Shown piece after piece: positions 7,441 to 31,760 of a DNA stretch of 64,000 nt (position 1 is its first letter; each line of letters begins with the position of its first letter). The position numbers and the translations under genes are program-made. The stretch lies in contig CAJNDT010003990.1 in NCBI GenBank assembly GCA_905221615.1, forward strand, positions 440,501-504,500, in the 5' to 3' direction. This DNA comes from Symbiodinium sp. CCMP2592. Lineage: Eukaryota; Sar; Dinophyceae; Suessiales; Symbiodiniaceae. The notes under the pieces are model-generated. The model did not search any database. It was not told the DNA's origin and was given only the letters and a program-made list of their open reading frames with translations.

Positions 7441-7578
7441 CTAGACGTCGGAAAATTCCGCACACTTCTTCAGCAGGCGTTTGAGAGATTTCAAGACACT
7501 TCTGAAAAAAAAAAAAAAAAAAAAAAAAAAACAAAAAAAACAAAAAAAAAAAAAGAAAAAAAAAAAAAAAAAAAAACC

Positions 7579-7676
<98 letters not shown>

Positions 7677-9087
7677 AAAACAACAAACAAAAAAAAAAAA
7701 AAACCTTGTACTTCCCACCAGAACGTTTCTCACCCCCCACGCAAGCCCCTTCACTCCTTCCAGGACCAGCACCTGATCGCAAAAGCGATGCCACGAATAG
7801 CACAGGTGTGCGCAGGTCGTTCCGGCACGTATCCTTCATCGTACCGATAAGGTTGTCCTCATCGGCTTTGGAGCCGATCAGCTCCTTGCAAGTTATGCGA
7901 GAGCAACCCTTAGTGGACTTAGGCACGGCGTAGCCATTACCCAAGCCACAGAGGTCAACGATCATGCGGTCTGGCTTTCGTCCACCAGCCTTCGACGGCA
8001 TGGCTACCAATCTCCCATTGCCCGTTGCCTGAAATTTCAAGGCTTTAAGCAATCTCCTGGATATTTGGCTAGTCAACTCGCATTTATCAGATCGATCCTT
8101 AGCGTCCGAATCAGTCATGTGTAAATGTTTGGACGAGCACACATCAGACGACTTAGGATGCAACGCGACGTTTGCGGCAATGTACTCCCATTCATCCTTG
8201 CAGTAGCCGAGCTCAACGGCGGTTCCGGTAGATACAGGATCCCGAAAGGTATAACGTTGCCCGTGAGTGCATCCTTGGATCTTGATGCTCTTCCACATGG
8301 CATCTTCCTGAAGCCCCTTGTACTGCTTGGTTTCCTGGACTGGTACTCGAGGAGGTACTTCGATGATGATTTGGAACCCCCATGATGCCGCTCTGCGCGC
8401 AATTCTTTGGACGACCTCCCCCCATGGGTAGTCTGTCCGCAATTTGGCCCTTTCAGGGTTGTCAGCGATGTTCCGACTCAGCCACGAATTCTTGCCCAAC
8501 ACCCCTGCACCAATGAAGATTACGGAGTTAGGGTTGTCTTTCCTTGCTTCCACCACATCAAAGATGTAGGCGCACATGGCGTCGTCAACTTCTCTCCCCA
8601 TACTCAGAACATTTACTTGCAGCCCAGGGTCGTAGTGAGAATCGGGAGCATGCTGGGCGATGCAATCCTTGCCTGGAGCATACTCATTCCACCAGTTCTC
8701 CTCATCGACTCCTATCAATGTCCACACCGTCACTGCCTTTGGAGCATCTTTGATAGTGATACGGTACTTCCACCGGCTGTGAGGATTCTTGTAAGTATGG
8801 ACCAACCTTCCATCGTGGTCGAGGAATTGGATCACCAGGCCCTCCTTGGGTTTGTTTTCGGCGAAATTGACCACGTGAGGCACAATTGCTCCATCATATC
8901 CTTGATATTCCCTTTTCTGTTCCGACGCATCATGCCATACATCTTCGTACACCGACGACCATTGGTCATAACCAAATTGAGAGGCTTGACTTTTGGACTG
9001 GCCGTTGAAACAAAATCCCTGGTGCAATGTAAAGCCCTGGTACCCCCATGGATGGCACGCGCCAGTGTGACAACCACCGCTCGCCAT
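7441..9087 (-). CDS. Accessory ORF downstream of copia RNase H, unknown function
   Basis: The frame from 9087 continues the RT-RNase H transcript after a frame change near 9.1 kb. The translated part has ordinary globular composition (FGYDQWSSVYEDVWHDA, then SVIFIGAGVLGKNSWL, then a Lys/Ser-rich tail). I recognise no enzyme family; the hydrophobic VIFIGAGV segment is suggestive of a beta strand and glycine turn but is not diagnostic. Near its end the frame enters a T-rich tract (7502-7704) that reads as poly-Phe. This fits an intron: splicing from AAG before GT at 7704 to the residue after CAG at 7502 restores frame and adds a short tail (KCLEISQTPAEEVC...) ending at a TGA near 7431. Plant copia elements also can carry an extra ORF after RNase H; homology to those is not claimed. 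Confidence 0.55.
7502..7704 (-). other. Intron candidate made almost only of T
   Basis: On the minus strand the sequence reads AAG then GTTTTT, about 200 bases that are almost all T with a few G, C or A, then TTTCAG and an A. Canonical GT and AG lie exactly at the edges, and removal joins two open frames in phase 0. Alternatively it is an expanded homopolymer or the A-tail of a plus-strand insertion. Length and interruptions of such a run are prone to sequencing error. Confidence 0.5.
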
Positions 9088-22224: not shown

Positions 22225-23254
22225 TGATCTGCAAAGGTCGTCGTCAAAAGCGGTCGTCGCAACCTTCGTCGTCGTTGACTGACAGCCTACGGCTTGAACC
22301 TTTGAGCCCTTTAGGGTAGTTCTAAACCAGGATCGGGAAAAATACTAAGGGAACCCAACAGGACAACTAAGAATCACTAAACCCGAAATGTTGCACAGTG
22401 CGCCCATGCACTGAAGACTTTCTGCAATGGTGTGGTTCTTATGTCCAAAGCTTTGAAGGAATTCTGCAATGCCGTGATCTCCAATGTTCGAATCACTGAA
22501 GGAATTCTGCAATGCTGTTCTCCTCTCGGCCTCTGCCGATGCTCACTCCCACTCGGTCACGAAGGGTATAAGGGGTCGAGTATAAGATTACGCAAGGCAC
22601 TGCACACGCTGAGCCGCAAGCGATCACCGACGAGACCCCGAAACCCTGAACTCTCAAAAACCCTTTCCCGGTCAGTGGCCCTTTGTCGAACTTGAGCCGT
22701 TCGCAGTTTCGTCGTGTTACTGCTTCCACTGTGACCTGTCAGGCTTGCGTGGCTTCCGACAAGCATCTGCCTACTGGCAACAGCATGCACACGCGAACAT
22801 GTAGTCTCGTGAGACAAGAGGACTGCGGAACTAGTTACAGAGCTGCCCCGTAGCTCTTCTTCGTTCTTTTCTTTCTTTTTTCGGGGATCTTCATATGTTC
22901 TTGTTCCGGGCCAGTGCCCCATCAGCTACTGCTACGTCCTCCTTCAGCTACTCCTACACCGCACTTGCACTCAAACACCTACGGATGTCATGAGAGCATG
23001 TGCTGTGTGTCTGCGCCGAGTAGCATACAAACAATTTGTTCGCAAGAGAAATAATTAGGATGTGTAAACACTAGCTCGCGAGCCTAGCCGAGGCATCATG
23101 AGCAAGATCATAAAAGCATCATGGACATCTGGAGTTTCCTAGAACACTCCTCCTTTGCAGTTGTGCGTGTTGCACGGACGGCTGGAACATCCTTCCCCCA
23201 GTGTCTCATGACGGAAATTAGGCGCCGGACTATACCTTCTGCGCCTCAAGAAAG
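22225..23254. other. Unassigned spacer
   Basis: Only short frames. A recurring word, GAAGGAATTCTGCAATG-like, occurs twice at ~22456 and ~22498. No RNA gene or clear element end is visible. It leads into the TAGC-rich element. Confidence 0.35.
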
Positions 23255-23431
23255 GTACACTAGCTAGCACTTCCTATCCCGCCACCACCCCTAGACACCT
23301 CCAGGGTACGTAGTAGCTAAGGAACTTAGCGACCTCACACAGCTAAGAGACGCAGACACTCTTTTTAGCGGTGTGGCGAAAATCCCTGTCGCCCGGAGAA
23401 AGTCTCTAGCCTCCAAGGCTAGCCAATCTCC
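23255..23431. repeat. 177-bp direct repeat, copy A
   Basis: It begins GTACACTAGCTAGCAC and ends GCTAGCCAATCTCC. It is repeated directly at 23674-23850 with equal length and nearly or fully identical sequence. The copies lie 3' of the RNase H ORF. Confidence 0.9.
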
Positions 23432-23673
23432 AGGGTGGGTTGGGTGGGCACTTCAAATTTGCCCCCCCAAGGGGGCTCTTTAGCACAATGGCCACGGACA
23501 TTCCATGTTCGTTTAGCGGCCATGTGAACCCCATGTACTGCAATAGCGGAAACACCTGCAGTGTATTCCTACCGACATCTTCGATGTAGGAATAGCGAAA
23601 CACCTTCGATGTTTTCTTTTGGGAAGTTTAGCGCTAGCATACACTGTCGTACCTCGTTCCTCGGCACGAGTGC
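23432..23673. other. Spacer between the 177-bp repeats
   Basis: The spacer has imperfect short repeats around the word AATAGCGAAACACCT at ~23542 and ~23591, each next to a small complementary arm, which could form hairpins. There is no coding signal. Confidence 0.5.
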
Positions 23674-23850
23674 GTACACTAGCTAGCACTTCCTATCCCG
23701 CCACCACCCCTAGACACCTCCAGGGTACGTAGTAGCTAAGGAACTTAGCGACCTCACACAGCTAAGAGACGCAGACACTCTTTTTAGCGGTGTGGCGAAA
23801 ATCCCTGTCGCCCGGAGAAAGTCTCTAGCCTCCAAGGCTAGCCAATCTCC
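23674..23850. repeat. 177-bp direct repeat, copy B
   Basis: Second copy of the repeat at 23255-23431, adjoining the end of the RNase H frame. Confidence 0.9.
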
Positions 23851-23866
23851 TAGCGCAGCCGGAGGG

Positions 23867-24574
23867 CTACCAGGGTTCCAGCTTCCGAGGTCGCTTCGCG
23901 AACCTCATAGCTGGAGGTGGCTTGGTCCTCTTAGCCACGCTCAGCTCTTCAAAGTAGCTGGTCGCGTGGGACAAGAGTCGACCGAGCACCCGCCACTGTA
24001 GCGCTTCCCCCTTCAGGTCGATCCTGAAGTTCGGGTCGAAGCTAGCGAAGTTTTCGTTGGTGAGGTCGTCTGCTAGCTGGTTCAGGTCCCTCCTGATCCA
24101 CTGTAGCTGGAGCTCACAGTTCTTAGCCGACAGCTCCTCCGCTAGCTCCATAAGGATTAGCGTCGAGGGAAACTTCGTCGTCATAGCTTTCTTGAGTAGC
24201 GCTTCGTTGGACTGGTTGTCCGTGTAGCCGCGAGGAGCCACCCTCGAGGTCTTCTTAGCGCTTCCGTCCGGGACCCAGAGTTGGACTCCAACCAAGGTAG
24301 CCAGAAGCTCTAGCGCAGCGATCACCTTGCCCGGGTCGCCTTTAGCAAAAGCCCAAGGGGCGCCACCGATCCAGGCCCTGCCGTTTTCAGCTTTAGCGTC
24401 CGTGAAGAAGCTCAGGGGAGCAGCGCCTTCCAGTAGCGGTTCCGGCTTTTGGAGCCTATCGCCCCCCTCCAGTCGGTCAGCAAGCCAGGAGCAGAGGACA
24501 CGTAGCATGGTCGGAAAGGTTAGCAGTCCTGCCTTCCCCTGGACGGCGGACGACCACGCATGTAGCGGGCCCAA
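23867..24574 (-). CDS. RNase H domain of the TAGC-rich retroelement
   Basis: The frame holds the sequence of acidic residues expected for a retroelement RNase H: FFTDAKAENG, then ALELLATLVG, then GYTDNQSNEAL and finally WIRRDLNQLADDLTN. It would degrade the RNA strand of the replication intermediate. The first Met here is not the real start; the domain follows the RT in a different frame. Stop at 23867-23869 lies just outside the second 177-bp repeat. Confidence 0.65.
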   Translation of the reverse strand: MGPLHAWSSAVQGKAGLLTFPTMLRVLCSWLADRLEGGDRLQKPEPLLEGAAPLSFFTDAKAENGRAWIGGAPWAFAKGDPGKVIAALELLATLVGVQLWVPDGSAKKTSRVAPRGYTDNQSNEALLKKAMTTKFPSTLILMELAEELSAKNCELQLQWIRRDLNQLADDLTNENFASFDPNFRIDLKGEALQWRVLGRLLSHATSYFEELSVAKRTKPPPAMRFAKRPRKLEPW

Positions 24575-24821
24575 GAAGGGGCGCTCCCAGTCTAGCGCAA
24601 TGGAAGCGAAACCCAGTTTTTACCGAGCCCCCCCTGGCGAAGGCCTTAGCTTCCACCTTCCCAGACTGGGCTAGCGAGCGGAGCCAGGTGACCAACCAAG
24701 TAGCGCGCTTCAAGGAAAGCCCTAGCTTGTAGCTGGGGTACTCCGTCTCCATCCCTAGCCACTCCACTCGAAATCCCCCACGAGTTTTCGACCACTTGAA
24801 TGGGTATCCTAGCGCAGCCAA
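24477..24821 (-). CDS. RT thumb/connection segment of the TAGC-rich retroelement
   Basis: ALGYPFKWSKTRGGFRVEWL and the following segment YPSYKLGLSLKRATWLVTWL match the part of dinoflagellate/DIRS-like RTs just after the YADD palm. The frame then loses coding sense near 24.65 kb, where RNase H begins in another frame. It is a frame-disrupted part of one polyprotein. Confidence 0.5.
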   Translation of the reverse strand: MAALGYPFKWSKTRGGFRVEWLGMETEYPSYKLGLSLKRATWLVTWLRSLAQSGKVEAKAFARGGSVKTGFRFHCARLGAPLLGPATCVVVRRPGEGRTANLSDHATCPLLLAC

Positions 24822-24829
24822 ATACAGGT

Positions 24830-25740
24830 AGCTCAGGGGAATTCTCTAGCGCCACGCCCCATTGACTCCAAATCGTCGGCGTAGAGTAGCGTGTCCAAGG
24901 GGAAGCCCGAACCTAGCAAGTGGTACGTTAGCCTTAGGATGCGCGTCCACCAGTATAGCTGGCACACGACAGTCCAAATGTGCCTACCAGGTTGACGTAG
25001 ACCGTCTGACTAGCGGGGTCCCCAGGGATCTCCTCCTCCTGGTCGACCTGGCAGCCAAGATAGCCGTGTTCTTTAGCAGAGTGCTTGTAGCGGCGGTGGG
25101 CTTTAGCAATGTCCAAAGCCGTGGAGCCCTCGCCCTCGTGCTCTCGTAGCAGGTGCTTTTTCTCCCTAGCACCCGGGGAGCGTTAGCCATCAGGCCTTCT
25201 GCCACGTGCGAGGCCTCCCAGGGAGCATTCTCGAGAGGCCACTTTGGCTGCTCCTCAAAGACGTGAGGTGTCCTTGGTAGCGGGTCGAGGATACCCACCG
25301 GAAGCCCCTCCTCCGCCTGGCGTAGGAAGTTCCGGTGCGGGTCCCCGGCCGCCTCTAGCATGGCCCGAATCAGCTTGAGGTATAGCGGCTGTCTGGGCGC
25401 AGCCTCCAGTAGCCCGGGTTCAGAGAGGTCCTGGCCCTCTAGCCACGTCTGCCAGAGGTCGCGTAGCTGTTGTTGCAGCTCCTTATCGCTAGCTAGCTTG
25501 CAGCCCAGTTCACCTCCCGCTGCCATGCGGGAGGCTTCCTTCTCTAGCTGATCCAAGGAGCCCACCTTAGCGAGGACAAGCTCCAGCATTAGCCCGTCCC
25601 AGGAGGGACCGTCGGCATAGCTCCTGGCGTGGTGAGGCCATCGACCAGGCGAGCATAGCCCCCCTCCATCGTGGAACGGTTTGCCCCCCCTAGCTGGCGG
25701 CAGAAACGGGGTGGTCCCGTCCCGGGCTTGTTTAGCGGGA
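24830..25740 (-). pseudogene. RT fingers and palm (YADD) of the TAGC-rich retroelement, frameshifted
   Basis: In pieces: GGGLCSPGRW (about 25.65 kb), a helical linker in the 25589 frame (LELVLAKVGSLDQLEKEAS, DPHRNFLRQAEEGLPVG), then in a second frame LDIAKAHRRYKHSAKEHGYL and VYVNLVGTFGLSCASY, and LLYADDLESMG with the catalytic YADD at 24883-24872. DIAKAH and FGLSCASY are typical positions of RT palm motifs. At least two frame changes and a stop after YADD make this copy inactive unless spliced. Confidence 0.6.
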
Positions 25741-25790
25741 AGGTCTCCGGACTTCCGGTGCAGGTTTTGTCCTGCGTAGCGTCCCCCTCC

Positions 25791-26486
25791 TCACCAACGG
25801 CGACTGTAGCAGGAGGCAAGCAGGACGAAAGTAGCAAGGGAGAGCCACTGGCACATCCTAGCAGGCCACTGTTCAGAACCAGAAGTAGCAAAGGCGCCCT
25901 CGGAAGCGTCTAGCTTTGGAAGCGGTCCCAAATAGAACCCAGAAGAGTCGTAGCTAGGAGCCCCTTCGAACACAAAGTCGGGCATTTCTAGCTGTGTGTG
26001 CAGCAGCAGTCGGGTCGGCTGCTCCATAGCAAGAAAGGCTGCAGCCCCATCAGCCACAGCTGTAGCGACCTCGAAGGAGAAGTCGGCAAAGATGTTCCCG
26101 AGGATAGCCCGGTCTCGCTCAGCAAGTGTTAGCGTCGGGTTGCCACGCGGGTGCTCGTAGCTACGAACAGGCCGTGGTCCTCGAAAGTTAGCCCAGGTAG
26201 CTCGCGAGAAGCTAGCGCACGGCGGTGACAGCAGCACCGCAGCAAACTCCTTAGCGCGGATCCTGTCCAGGTAGCTGGCCCGAACCTTGGGCAGGCTGAG
26301 GTCGTGTTTAGCAGAACACTTGACGTCCACACACTCGGTGTACACCTCAAGTCCCCACGTAGCGGCCAGTTGCTTCAGGCATGTAGCCATGTCTAGCTTA
26401 CGGGGTGTCCCCGAGAACAGGTAGAGGACCTTTAGCGTGGAAGAAGCAGGTGGTGCCACCGGTTCCTCTGTACCCTGACCCTCCAA
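25791..26486 (-). CDS. Methyltransferase-like domain upstream of RT
   Basis: The frame starts at 26486 (MEGQGTEEPVAPPAS). LKVLYLFSGTPRK resembles motif I of cytosine-C5 methyltransferase relatives, VLLSPPCASFSRATW resembles motif IV with the PPC catalytic Cys, and AMEQPTRLL is in the place of the ENV motif. The glycine pattern of motif I is partly lost. The last ~45 residues (after SEGAF) probably are out of frame. It may methylate DNA or be a decayed fold kept for another use. Sequence position directly before RT links it to the element. Confidence 0.6.
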   Translation of the reverse strand: MEGQGTEEPVAPPASSTLKVLYLFSGTPRKLDMATCLKQLAATWGLEVYTECVDVKCSAKHDLSLPKVRASYLDRIRAKEFAAVLLSPPCASFSRATWANFRGPRPVRSYEHPRGNPTLTLAERDRAILGNIFADFSFEVATAVADGAAAFLAMEQPTRLLLHTQLEMPDFVFEGAPSYDSSGFYLGPLPKLDASEGAFATSGSEQWPARMCQWLSLATFVLLASCYSRRW

Positions 26487-26649
26487 TAGTCTCTTAAAAA
26501 TAAGGGTCTGTTTTGCTAAACGCTTAATCCTTTAACAAGCCCTTAAAATAATCGCTTATTGTTGATTTGTTAAGCGCTTGTTAAGAGCTTGTTAAGCGCC
26601 TGCTCTTCTTCTTCTTCTTCTTCTTCTTCTTCTTCTTCTTTGTTGTATA

Positions 26650-26680
<31 letters not shown>

Positions 26681-26685
26681 CACAC
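26487..26685. repeat. Spacer with TTAAGCGCTTGTTAAG-type words, (TCT)n and (TA)n
   Basis: Words such as TTAAGCGCTTGTTAAG recur near 26535-26600. A (TTC)n tract lies at ~26603-26641 and a (TA)n tract at ~26649-26676. These form the boundary between the element and the next gene. Confidence 0.8.
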
Positions 26686-26830
26686 ATGCAGAATAGTTTT
26701 TCTCCGAGCCACGGATCGATGGTCGAGGGAGGGAGGGAGGTCGGCCATGAGTCCGATGCGATGCATCATCGTATTCATCTCGATCATTCGACAGCATCGT
26801 TGTCCTGTGCGATCGTTTTGCTCCGCCGCA

Positions 26831-26852
26831 GTTTTGTTTCAGAAGGCTCAAG
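26831..26852 (+). promoter_or_regulatory. Trans-splice acceptor candidate with leader-like bases
   Basis: A T-rich tract ending in CAG (26842) is followed by AAGGCTCAAG; GGCTCAAG equals the last 8 bases of the spliced leader. It lies 14 bases upstream of the ATG at 26866. It could be the spliced-leader acceptor of that gene, possibly with a relict leader. Confidence 0.4.
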
Positions 26853-26865
26853 TCCTAGAGGAGCC

Positions 26866-28047
26866 ATGGAGGCCAAGGACAGAGTCCCCACAATTTTGCT
26901 GAAGCACCTGCCTCGTGGTCCTGAGTCGAAGGACTACCTGCAGCCGGACCCGAATCTGTTGTGCGACCAGTTCGGCGAGATGGCTTTAGACATCATGCTT
27001 TGTGATGGGCGGAAGTCTTCCAAATTCTTGGAGGGCTGTGCCATCGAAGCTTGGCCCAATATTCTTTCTGCCAGCGAAGCACAATGTTTCGGGCAGCGAC
27101 TTTTTTCGCTTCTCGAACACCTGCACCTCAAAAAAAAGCAAAGCAGTTCTTGTGCCAAGCTACACCCTTCTGTGAAAAAGGTGGTCAGTGCCCTCAAGGA
27201 GAAGATGCCTGGTCGAATGAACTCGTTCGGCTCGCTCTCCTCATCGTCCCATGGTCCTGCAAAGAAGTGCTCTGCAAGCAGCCCGGCGGCTGCAAAGCCT
27301 GAACCGGCACTGACGCTTCCGGGAAAAGGTGATGTCAAGGCTGCTTACAAGCAGCAACTGAAACTGGAAGAGGATGCCATAAAGCTTTCGCAGGAGGAGG
27401 AGGAGGAGGAGATTGAGCATGTCCCAGCTTCGGCAAGTGTCGTTTCTCTTTCGTCGGCCGAGGATGCGGTCTCGGCCAAGGATGAAGCGACCCAGGGTCT
27501 GCAAGATCCAGGCTTTTATCAGTACTACAGCTCGGGAGACCTTTCTGAAGTTCGCTTGTACACGGATGGCTCCTTTGAGCTTGCAAAGATGTCGCACGGA
27601 CCAAACGGCTTCTGTGTGGCGAAGTTCAAAGATGGATCGCAGCATTTGACAGAAATGCCTAATGCTTTGCTTCGGACAGCGAAGCCGAAGCAGAGTAAGC
27701 AGTCAAGCAAGAAAAGGCCTGCAGCTGCCCAAAGCTCCGAGCCGAAGGTGAAGCAAGCAAAAAAAGCACCGGTGGCCCAGCCTGCACCGGCAGACCAAGA
27801 GGCTGCAGAGGAGGAGAGGCCCCACGGCTTCACAGTGGGGGCTTACAACATGAACTACTACAAGCCGCCTCGTCACAAGTATGGTATCAAGACCCGAGGC
27901 CACGAGCTTTTCTGTCTGCCTGTGAGGCAGAAGCCATGGAAGGTTGTGGAGACTTACATCCGCGACTTTGTTGTGCCCGAGCTGTGCCAGGGAAAAGACC
28001 CTGCCGAAGTGAAGGAAGTTGCCCTGGCCGCTCTCCAGAACCTTTGA
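26866..28047 (+). CDS. Uncharacterised protein, intronless
   Basis: I choose the ATG at 26866 (GAGCCATGG context) rather than the upstream in-frame ATG at 26686, because the sequence before it is low complexity and contains an acceptor-like site. The ~393-residue product has a globular N-terminal part (about residues 1-95), a Ser/Ala/Lys linker, an acidic stretch (SQEEEEEEIEHV), a central part with a hairpin-like DLSEVRLYTDGSFELAKM, a Lys-rich linker (KKRPAAAQSSEPKVKQAKK, like a nuclear localisation signal), and a compact C-terminus (YNMNYYKPPRHKYGIKTRGH). I do not recognise the family. The lack of introns and the leader-like 5' end fit a retrocopied gene. Confidence 0.65.
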   Translation: MEAKDRVPTILLKHLPRGPESKDYLQPDPNLLCDQFGEMALDIMLCDGRKSSKFLEGCAIEAWPNILSASEAQCFGQRLFSLLEHLHLKKKQSSSCAKLHPSVKKVVSALKEKMPGRMNSFGSLSSSSHGPAKKCSASSPAAAKPEPALTLPGKGDVKAAYKQQLKLEEDAIKLSQEEEEEEIEHVPASASVVSLSSAEDAVSAKDEATQGLQDPGFYQYYSSGDLSEVRLYTDGSFELAKMSHGPNGFCVAKFKDGSQHLTEMPNALLRTAKPKQSKQSSKKRPAAAQSSEPKVKQAKKAPVAQPAPADQEAAEEERPHGFTVGAYNMNYYKPPRHKYGIKTRGHELFCLPVRQKPWKVVETYIRDFVVPELCQGKDPAEVKEVALAALQNL

Positions 28048-28342
28048 CTCGAAATTTTTTTTGCATCGAAAGGTGAGCCTGCAAAACCATGCTTGCCGGA
28101 GCAACACCGTTAACCATTGCATGCCTTCAGATGTCAAGCTTGCCGGAGCAGCACCGTCGCCTGCATGCATTGGCTCAAGGTAGGATGGGGAGGGTATAGC
28201 TTGCCGGTCCTTGGGCTGCAGTCTCAGATCACCGGCATCATGTGCATGTGCCTGCCTTAGGAACCATCAGGTCTCAAAAGCTTGAAAATTGAAATCTGCT
28301 GTGGCACCGCCTGGCAGCATTTGGCCCAAGCCGTCGATCGCC
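28048..28342. repeat. Spacer with CTTGCCGGAGCA-type repeats
   Basis: The word TGCCGGAGCA(A/G)CACCGT occurs at ~28092 and ~28141, and CTTGCCGG again near 28199. A leader-like site is at 28170-28179. Confidence 0.7.
28170..28179 (+). promoter_or_regulatory. Spliced-leader-like word with donor-like GTAGG
   Basis: TTGGCTCAAG is followed at once by GTAGG. This resembles the exon end and splice donor of a spliced-leader RNA gene, but the 5' half of the leader is missing. A relict or chance match. Confidence 0.3.
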
Positions 28343-28546: not shown

Positions 28547-29523
28547 CCGAGTGCACGGAGAGCCCGATGTATAGCAGCATGCACTCGAATCTATAATTAA
28601 AAAAACTCTCCAGTCGCAGACGAGAGCCGGATAAGAGGCTATTTTCTGCAATCTTTACTTTGTGCCTGCAAGCGAGGAAACATGCCCGAGCTGTTGACAA
28701 GTGTGTCTGCTGATTGCTTTGCTTCTCAGCATGAGTCGTGCGAGGGATCTGAGTTGAGTTCTCTTTCATAGCGACCAGAGAGAGGGAGGGAGGGAGGCCG
28801 CTTGCAAAAGCCTTTACCCTGATAACAGCTAATGAAACAATCATATGTGTATGTTTCTATGGGTAAAGTGTAATGTTTACCTTGGCATGTGTAGACACAG
28901 AAACACACGCACAGTCCAAGCCCGAAATCCTATTACTTCCTGCCCAAACCACACACCCCGCCCCCCCCTCCAAAAAAAAAATAGCTTTCAATCAAAGCCC
29001 GATACTTCCTGAACCCCCGAAGCCCAAGCGGAGAAAAACAAACTTTCAAACCAAACCTTATAACTCCTAAATCCCGAGCCCTAAACCCCGAACCCCCCAA
29101 AGAACCCTAGCTCCTAAACCCCGAAGCCTAAACCCCGAAGCCCTCGAAAAACCCTAGCTGTGAAACCTGAGGTTGGCATCGAATCATGAGCCCGAGCACG
29201 GCAGCACCGAGACGGCTGGGAGGACCGATCTGTGCTGAGTGCGAGGGATCCGAGTTGAGTTCTCCTTCATATAAGGGACCGCAGGGAAGGAGGGAGGGAG
29301 GGAGGGAGGGAGGCTGATTGCTTTGCTTCTCCGCATGACTCGTGCGAGGGGTCCGAGTTGTGTTCTTTCATAGCGAGCAGAGGGAGGGAGGGAGGCCGCT
29401 TTGCAACATGCATGCTGACATGCTGTGCTTCTGCATCAGCATGAGTCTCTGCTGCTATCGATGGCACGATGGAAGCAAGAAGTTCGATCGGTAGTCCGGG
29501 TAGCCTTCGCAAGCCAAAGCACC
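28547..29523. repeat. GGGA-containing dispersed repeats and CCCTAAA-like tract
   Basis: Three related segments (about 28711-28806, 29230-29311, 29312-29406) share ATGAGTCGTGCGAGGGATC-like words, a GAGTTCTCTTTCATAGCG-like word and a (GGGA)n run. Between them (about 29010-29165) is a degenerate run of CCCTAAACCCCGAA-like words, similar to interstitial telomere sequence. No gene is seen. Confidence 0.7.
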
Positions 29524-30670: not shown

Positions 30671-31227
30671 GCATTGATTTTGGTGCAAGGAAAAAGAGAG
30701 TGAGGGAGGGAGGGAGGATAGTGTTCCGATAGTGTTCCTAGGTCAGTGTAGCACACAAGCCCCGAACTGGATTGCTGCAGGATGGAAGGAAGGTTGGCAC
30801 ATCACCTCACCCCCCCAATCCCGATGCCGAAACTTTCAGCACCATCCCCCTCAAGCCGAAATCCTGGAGCCAAAGTTTCCCGCACCAACCCCGACACCAT
30901 ACACGCTTGCAGGACCTTGCGAGTTCTTCCATGTGGCTTTCAAGGCCGGGACCCTGTGCCGGGTTGAAGTTAACATAAAACTCATAATATGTAGAAGATT
31001 TTTATCTCAGGGATGCTACAGGGAGGAATCGAGAGAGGGAGGGAGGGAGGGATTCCTATGGACCCATCGGCGACACCAAGATTGGATTGGGTTTATAGGG
31101 TTGATGTTCTGGAGGTTTAGGGTGGCTAATCAGTAATGTAGTATTCAGAAATGTAGTACTATATATTTTCAGAAGTATAAAAGTAGGAATAAGTATTTGT
31201 AACATTCATAGTAATTATATACTATAC
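30671..31227. other. Unassigned spacer with GGGA runs
   Basis: Two short (GGGA)n runs at ~30700 and ~31035. An AT-rich segment leads into the ACT tract. No gene seen. Confidence 0.5.

Positions 31228-31760
<533 letters not shown>

Follow-up and report, generated by a model that had tools for sequence, protein, structure and literature searches.

A spaced, strand-specific tetranucleotide in DIRS-like retrotransposons of Symbiodinium and its possible reading by the element's own Gag

In a window of 64,000 nucleotides (nt) from Symbiodinium sp. CCMP2592 (contig C3990, positions 440501-504500, within a 1.1-Gb assembly), a DIRS-like retrotransposon copy of 3236 nt (23255-26490, minus strand) is saturated along its sense strand with the tetranucleotide GCTA, which reads TAGC on the plus strand. 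The pattern is one of selection for a spaced, strand-specific word, because codon-preserving shuffles fail to reproduce it, because the use of a possible site depends on its distance from other sites, and because related families carry words of their own. The word was tested in this one genome. From sequence evidence, we consider it rather likely that GCUA forms a code read by an element protein, most likely Gag, which would select and coat or package the element's own RNA.

Density, spacing and selection of the word

Within the window copy, GCTA occurs 103 times (first to last site 23261-26436), with gaps of 31.1 nt on average and 94 nt at most. Base composition predicts 11.8 occurrences, which makes the excess 8.7-fold, and 1000 dinucleotide-preserving shuffles yield 22.7 (standard deviation (sd) 4.2, maximum 36), which makes it 4.5-fold; when all tetramers of the element are ranked, TAGC comes first. 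Across four 1-kb bins (23000-26999) the plus strand carries 106 TAGC versus 20 GCTA. An earlier note, made from the letters of this DNA, had claimed ninety TAGC in ~2.75 kb, an approximately eightfold excess over random, gaps of no more than ~95 bases and enrichment of one strand orientation, all in agreement with these counts, the density being the same and the fold excess matching that from base composition. The sites are also regularly spaced: the coefficient of variation of the gaps is 0.51, versus a mean of 0.97 under random placement (0.1 percentile 0.75), and random placement gives a median longest gap of 153. The untranslated 3′ repeats of the element also carry GCTA, and among near-matches of the word GCCA is slightly raised (15 vs 12 expected).

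The excess starts and stops with the element. TAGC sites start at 23261 and end with the one at 26433, the next beyond the element lying at 28197, and three lie just ahead of it (23021, 23072 and 23085). With tandem repeats masked, no part of the window scores higher for any tetramer than the 3-kb windows over the element (15.6), the best score elsewhere being 7.9, for TCTT. The ~60.8 kb outside 23255-26490 hold 119 TAGC and 96 GCTA; the host sequence of the window has both words at background levels only, and on this ground a property of the host genome was rejected as the source of the pattern.

A longer relative on contig C4855 (loci L063 and L065; family A) spans at least 10.1 kb, its 5′ end lying beyond the sequence examined. 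Its open reading frames (ORFs) comprise a recombinase-like ORF of 773 amino acids (aa), a 565-aa ORF2, Gag, the frame of which is broken near the start, and a stop-to-stop Pol frame of 1065 aa, and its right end holds two exact copies of a 187-nt repeat. GCTA occurs 330 times in 10,122 nt (32.6 per kb) and TAGC 49 times, up to 42 of these forced by overlap (GCTAGC or TAGCTA), and the 379 nt read past the element end contain 2 GCTA. Its untranslated stretches are similarly dense (26.7, 31.3 and 41.1 per kb), as the earlier statement that the word passes through coding and non-coding parts implies. C is the favoured base before the word (154/330), and none of the one-mismatch neighbours of GCTA in family A is above expectation.

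Codon choice in this element bends to the word. In its four ORFs, shuffles that hold amino acids and codon usage (300 each) do not reproduce the GCTA count (z = 10.9, 10.1, 6.8 and 13.8). The forced choice that had been read from the window copy, GCT for Ala before A and CTA for Leu after G, is found here as well: the Ala codon before A is GCT in 123 of 150 cases, and CTN Leu codons are CTA in 106 of 150 cases after G versus 0 of 108 otherwise. Translation or codon bias was rejected as the cause, since the untranslated stretches are equally dense and the codon shuffles fail.

The strongest single result is the distance dependence of site use. Every position at which synonymous codons could create GCTA was taken as a possible site and scored as used or not. 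In the C4855 element, the fraction used is 0.11 for possible sites 4-8 nt from another site (n = 55) and 0.73 at 16-20 nt (n = 66), and at 30 nt or more from any other site all are used (65/65). Site use correlates with log distance at 0.59, versus 0.01 in 200 permutations (sd 0.06, maximum 0.17), and the control words TAGC, GCTC, GATC and GCAA stay at the permutation level. Thus a site is kept wherever the gap would otherwise lengthen and is dispensable when another is near.

The word is also conserved above its surroundings. Between family A and the family of the window copy, at 77.5% nucleotide identity, GCTA is kept in 68 of 95 cases (0.72) compared with 0.37 for other tetramers, and between families A and B in 50 of 112 (0.45) compared with 0.28. 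Lost sites are no nearer another site than chance would place them (medians 11, 12 and 13 nt vs null 8.8, 10.7 and 10.6, all inside the null interval); site positions turn over at constant density, and we do not claim local compensation.

Among the origins proposed in the earlier note was a mutational process, and a mutational or editing process that creates or preserves GCTA would suit the enrichment of one word on one strand at all 60 of the best-scoring loci surveyed. We regard it as extremely unlikely, as a purely mutational origin leaves the distance dependence unexplained, families D and E of the same genome (below) are at background, and GCTA is barely better kept than other tetramers between two decayed window-type copies (27/34, 0.79, vs 0.70), yet far better kept between families. 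Together, the failed shuffles, distance-dependent use, conservation and dense untranslated stretches bear out the nucleotide-level function that had been suggested.

Families with their own words

We surveyed 60 loci, namely the best 30 of 259 and the best 30 of 125 matches from two protein searches, L001 being the window copy and L002 a near-identical copy. In all 60 the word is at least threefold more abundant on one strand than on the other, and the best kilobase holds 32 to 40 sites. In family B (L062, L073) the word is GCTA, in L062 without upstream preference. Family C (L061, L064, L067, L068) has the words GGCTA and GGATA (71+37, 62+45, 66+39 and 76+51, respectively), and in both families the distance rule holds for their own words. 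The possible sites used amount to 266/434 in family A and 109/225 and 70/145 in family B for GCTA, and to 95/153, 94/149, 89/141 and 76/116 in family C for GGMTA. Among near-matches, GATA (14 vs 9 expected) and GCAA are slightly raised in family B; in family C GATA is clearly and GCGA moderately raised (45 vs 28 in L061). GCTA without a preceding G shows distance dependence in family C as well (0.39 and 0.26), which its common core with GGCTA leads one to expect.

Families D (L070, L071) and E (L072) match the saturated families in their kinds of Gag, Pol and methyltransferase-like domain. No saturated word, gapped or ungapped, was found in D or E, and they use 4/134, 7/128 and 12/167 of their possible GCTA sites; saturation as a property of all such elements was rejected accordingly. 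The earlier note had held that its claim would be contradicted by amino-acid-preserving shuffles that reproduce the count, or by related elements lacking the enrichment while keeping the same proteins. The shuffles gave no such contradiction. On the second point the evidence divides, in that the nearer families keep the word and the distant relatives are without it (3/3 loci).

A Gag search for family C yielded 3547 candidates at first look. Of the 102 copies that were scored, many show 99-100% identity, which suggests recent activity in the genome. One further locus, L074 (C5297:351500-356300), is a truncated family C insertion beside a long AGT repeat, and its GCTA density rises only at the element start. 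Three scans of viral contigs found no relative.

The presence of two words in a single genome and the absence of any from families D and E point to a family-specific reader, and one that is probably encoded by the element. A host RNA-binding factor might instead read the word and license the transcript, for export or for escape from silencing or decay, much as spaced motifs are proposed to license the germline genes of worms. Such a factor would be well served by a short, dense, unstructured sense-strand word running over the whole transcript, untranslated parts included. We nevertheless find such a factor unlikely, given that families A and B differ from C in their word and D and E have none, all in the same genome, and that the host sequence of the window is at background word levels.

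Candidate readers encoded by the element

Because the word is found on one strand only, a single strand is its likely target. The best candidate reader is Gag, through a CCCH zinc finger and a zinc knuckle. The Gag C-terminus carries a predicted CCCH finger and a CCHC-like knuckle in families A, B, C, D and E, and both are present in 76 of the 120 Gag homologues among the matches listed, many of the other 44, which lack a match to the finger pattern, being visibly truncated or frame-shifted. The saturated families have the finger form C-x7/8-C-x5-C-x3-H, and in D and E it is C-x8-C-x4-C-x3-H. In a tree of 70 Gags (7 genome loci and 63 homologues of at least 300 aa with finger and knuckle), the x5 form is one clade in 98% of bootstrap trees. 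Furthermore, the knuckle of family C reads TKCRG, compared with SLCFG and QLCFA. For MBNL1, recognition of GC or GCU in single-stranded RNA by its CCCH fingers is described (PMC3103431).

The sense strand would then act as a distributed recognition code, with one GCUA per 31 nt or so along 10 kb or more and synonymous codon choice placing sites so that no long stretch goes without one. An element-encoded protein, most likely Gag with its C-terminal finger and knuckle, would read the word on a single strand and may thereby select, coat or package the element's own RNA, or its single-stranded complementary DNA (cDNA). Binding sites for an element protein, one of three alternatives offered in the earlier note, fit best.

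Several observations weigh against Gag as the reader. The tree shows a single coincidence of saturation with finger type, hence one contrast, and families D and E carry a finger yet no word. The Pfam zf-CCCH profile reaches 19.6 bits in L061, against a cut-off of 20.5, gives no match in the Gag of L062, and matches 3 of 44 aligned Gags at an expectation value (E) up to 0.01. A structural model of Gag matched no PDB structure at E up to 0.001, which leaves a capsid fold unsupported, and no Gag of the window's own family was seen. Finally, the sites are not clearly unpaired, with accessibility of 0.134 versus 0.131 in shuffles (sd 0.007) for the whole element and 0.137 versus 0.123 (sd 0.010) for Pol.

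The word might also be read, on RNA or on single-stranded cDNA, by another protein of the element, whether reverse transcriptase, ORF2 or the recombinase-like ORF, in the service of processivity, strand transfer or protection of the cDNA. This would agree with a word that is strand-specific and element-wide, terminal repeats included, and with the cysteine-rich stretch that ends ORF2. No tetranucleotide-reading domain was recognised in ORF1 or in the scanned part of ORF2, however, and we judge a reader of this kind quite unlikely. The recombinase-like ORF of C4855 shows its motifs by eye (H-x-x-R and a late Tyr), and Pfam found no integrase domain in it. ORF2, which lies between this ORF and Gag in L065/L063, is without recognised function beyond its cysteine-rich C-terminus, and a cysteine-rich stretch resembling it lies upstream of Gag in L068.

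A further possibility is that the methyltransferase-like domain in Pol marks the word as self by modifying one of its bases, in RNA or in cDNA. The domain is present in all saturated families, and dinoflagellate retrotransposon DNMTs methylate DNA, though at CG, according to the parts of the description covered (PMC5890265). Yet in family C, which is saturated, SPPV stands in place of SPPC, at the expected position of the catalytic Cys, in 3 of 4 loci, the fourth (L067) having no match to the SPPC/SPPV pattern, and SPPC is retained in 3/3 loci of D and E, which are unsaturated. Furthermore, the domain only weakly resembles C5 methylases: the DNA_methylase Pfam profile matches 8 of 17 members, with E 0.026 at best, DNMT2 structures are matched at E 0.55, and the structural model is poor (mean predicted local distance difference test, pLDDT, 64.9), with no PDB match at E up to 0.001. 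The domain is thus unlikely as the reader, a modification serving as self mark is very unlikely, and the base-modification motif put forward in the earlier note has become less likely than binding by an element protein.

Element anatomy and relation to known systems

The window copy is a 5′-truncated, broken DIRS-like retrotransposon, without Gag or anything upstream of Gag. Its features are as follows.

23255..26490, minus strand: DIRS-like retrotransposon copy, 5′-truncated and broken (counts, shuffles, homologues and a second copy on contig C5179)
23255..23431, minus strand: B repeat, right-hand member of a pair of identical 177-nt direct repeats at a B-A-B right end (sequence repeat)
23432..23673, minus strand: inter-repeat stretch, presumed A2 (by position, following the DIRS layout in the parts of PMC5890265 covered)
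23674..23850, minus strand: left-hand copy of the 177-nt direct repeat (sequence repeat)
23867..24574, minus strand: RNase H-like ORF of 235 aa, internally gapped when compared with its relatives (221 homologues, alignment; Pfam RVT_3 weak, E 0.15)
24872..24883, minus strand: YADD codons of the reverse transcriptase (sequence; YADD also in relatives)
25791..26486, minus strand: methyltransferase-like ORF, 231 aa, motif SPPC, lacking a stretch present in relatives (111 homologues; motif)

The two 177-nt copies start 419 nt apart, and no 5′ partner of the presumed A2 stretch was seen for this 5′-truncated copy. The B-A-B right end recurs in L063 (187 nt), L062 (146 nt) and L064 (199 nt) and was not found in L061; of the DIRS-type split repeats only this right end was observed, the 5′ ends of the elements lying beyond the sequence examined. 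The reverse transcriptase frame of the window copy is broken around 24477-25589, and its methyltransferase-like ORF has no Pfam match. YADD and the RNase H-like domain share one Pol ORF with many homologues, Pfam being silent or weak, and they supply the reverse transcriptase with RNase H that a DIRS-like retrotransposon should have. The second copy, on C5179, is identical at 2751 of 2774 compared nt, and a 3′ relic on C192 shares 91% identity over ~1 kb. The few homologues with organism names are from Symbiodinium and, for Gag, from Symbiodinium and Cladocopium.

Dinoflagellate DIRS elements with DNA methyltransferases have already been described, and Pfam is silent or weak on Symbiodinium DIRS reverse transcriptases there too, in the parts of the report covered (PMC5890265). 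SymbioDIRS-Dnmt3 of that report resembles the present elements in its host group, in the joining of a methyltransferase-type domain and reverse transcriptase in one Pol ORF, in a separate ORF with recombinase-like motifs and in repeats ending B-A-B. The present elements differ in the weak Pfam match of the methyltransferase-like domain and in a recombinase ORF unmatched by Pfam, and no saturating word is described for SymbioDIRS-Dnmt3 in the parts covered. The element is of a known kind.

Elsewhere the window holds a 540-nt TAC repeat (31220-31759), a 199-nt A-rich run (7505-7703) and a short array of CCTAAACCCCGAAC-type units that resemble telomeric repeats (29064-29159). Strong phage-type integrase matches (E to 3e-44) occur on one long contig, C5051, perhaps a bacterial contig within the assembly.

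Accounts of how a packaging protein tells its own RNA from that of the cell usually invoke a single structured signal or dispersed signals of loose definition. The nucleocapsid of retroviral Gag has CCHC knuckles and reads mainly a local packaging signal, and we know of no retroviral case with hundreds of evenly spaced words. The present Gag is alike in having a C-terminal zinc module, RNA-binding in retroviruses and putatively so here. Known dispersed packaging signals are degenerate stem-loops, present in tens. Those of single-stranded RNA viruses comprise many genome-wide sites with proposed reading by coat protein during assembly, in the parts of the source covered (PMC6281560), and the present element likewise has many sites under selection along its whole length. 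It differs from them in its strict tetranucleotide in hundreds, its even-spacing rule and its lack of clear structural presentation, as accessibility is not clearly different from shuffles; conserved stem-loops were not searched for. In MBNL1, as far as the covered parts describe it (PMC3103431), CCCH fingers read GC or GCU in single-stranded RNA and several sites per RNA are tolerated. MBNL1 is, however, a host splicing factor with four fingers, whereas the element Gag has one CCCH finger and a knuckle, with putative binding.

We found no precedent for a saturating, spaced tetranucleotide in a retroelement in the open-access literature, judged mostly by titles and the openings of abstracts. 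The spaced tetranucleotide code departs from the idea of dispersed packaging signals in that it fails the structural part of this idea and in that the word obeys a distinct spacing rule. If binding by Gag were true, the feature could be classed with the dispersed packaging signals.

We give an even chance to an element-wide address code, in which hundreds of strict, evenly spaced tetranucleotides would be read by the element's own zinc-finger Gag, word and reader would change together between sister families in one nucleus, and each family would package only its own RNA. The signal would then be a short, strict word repeated hundreds of times, spaced by a rule that can be measured and different in form between related families. 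Self-recognition could be read off the sequence and probed with short RNAs and a small zinc-finger domain. Furthermore, as the CTN Leu codons illustrate, coding sequence can densely carry a second code through synonymous codons.

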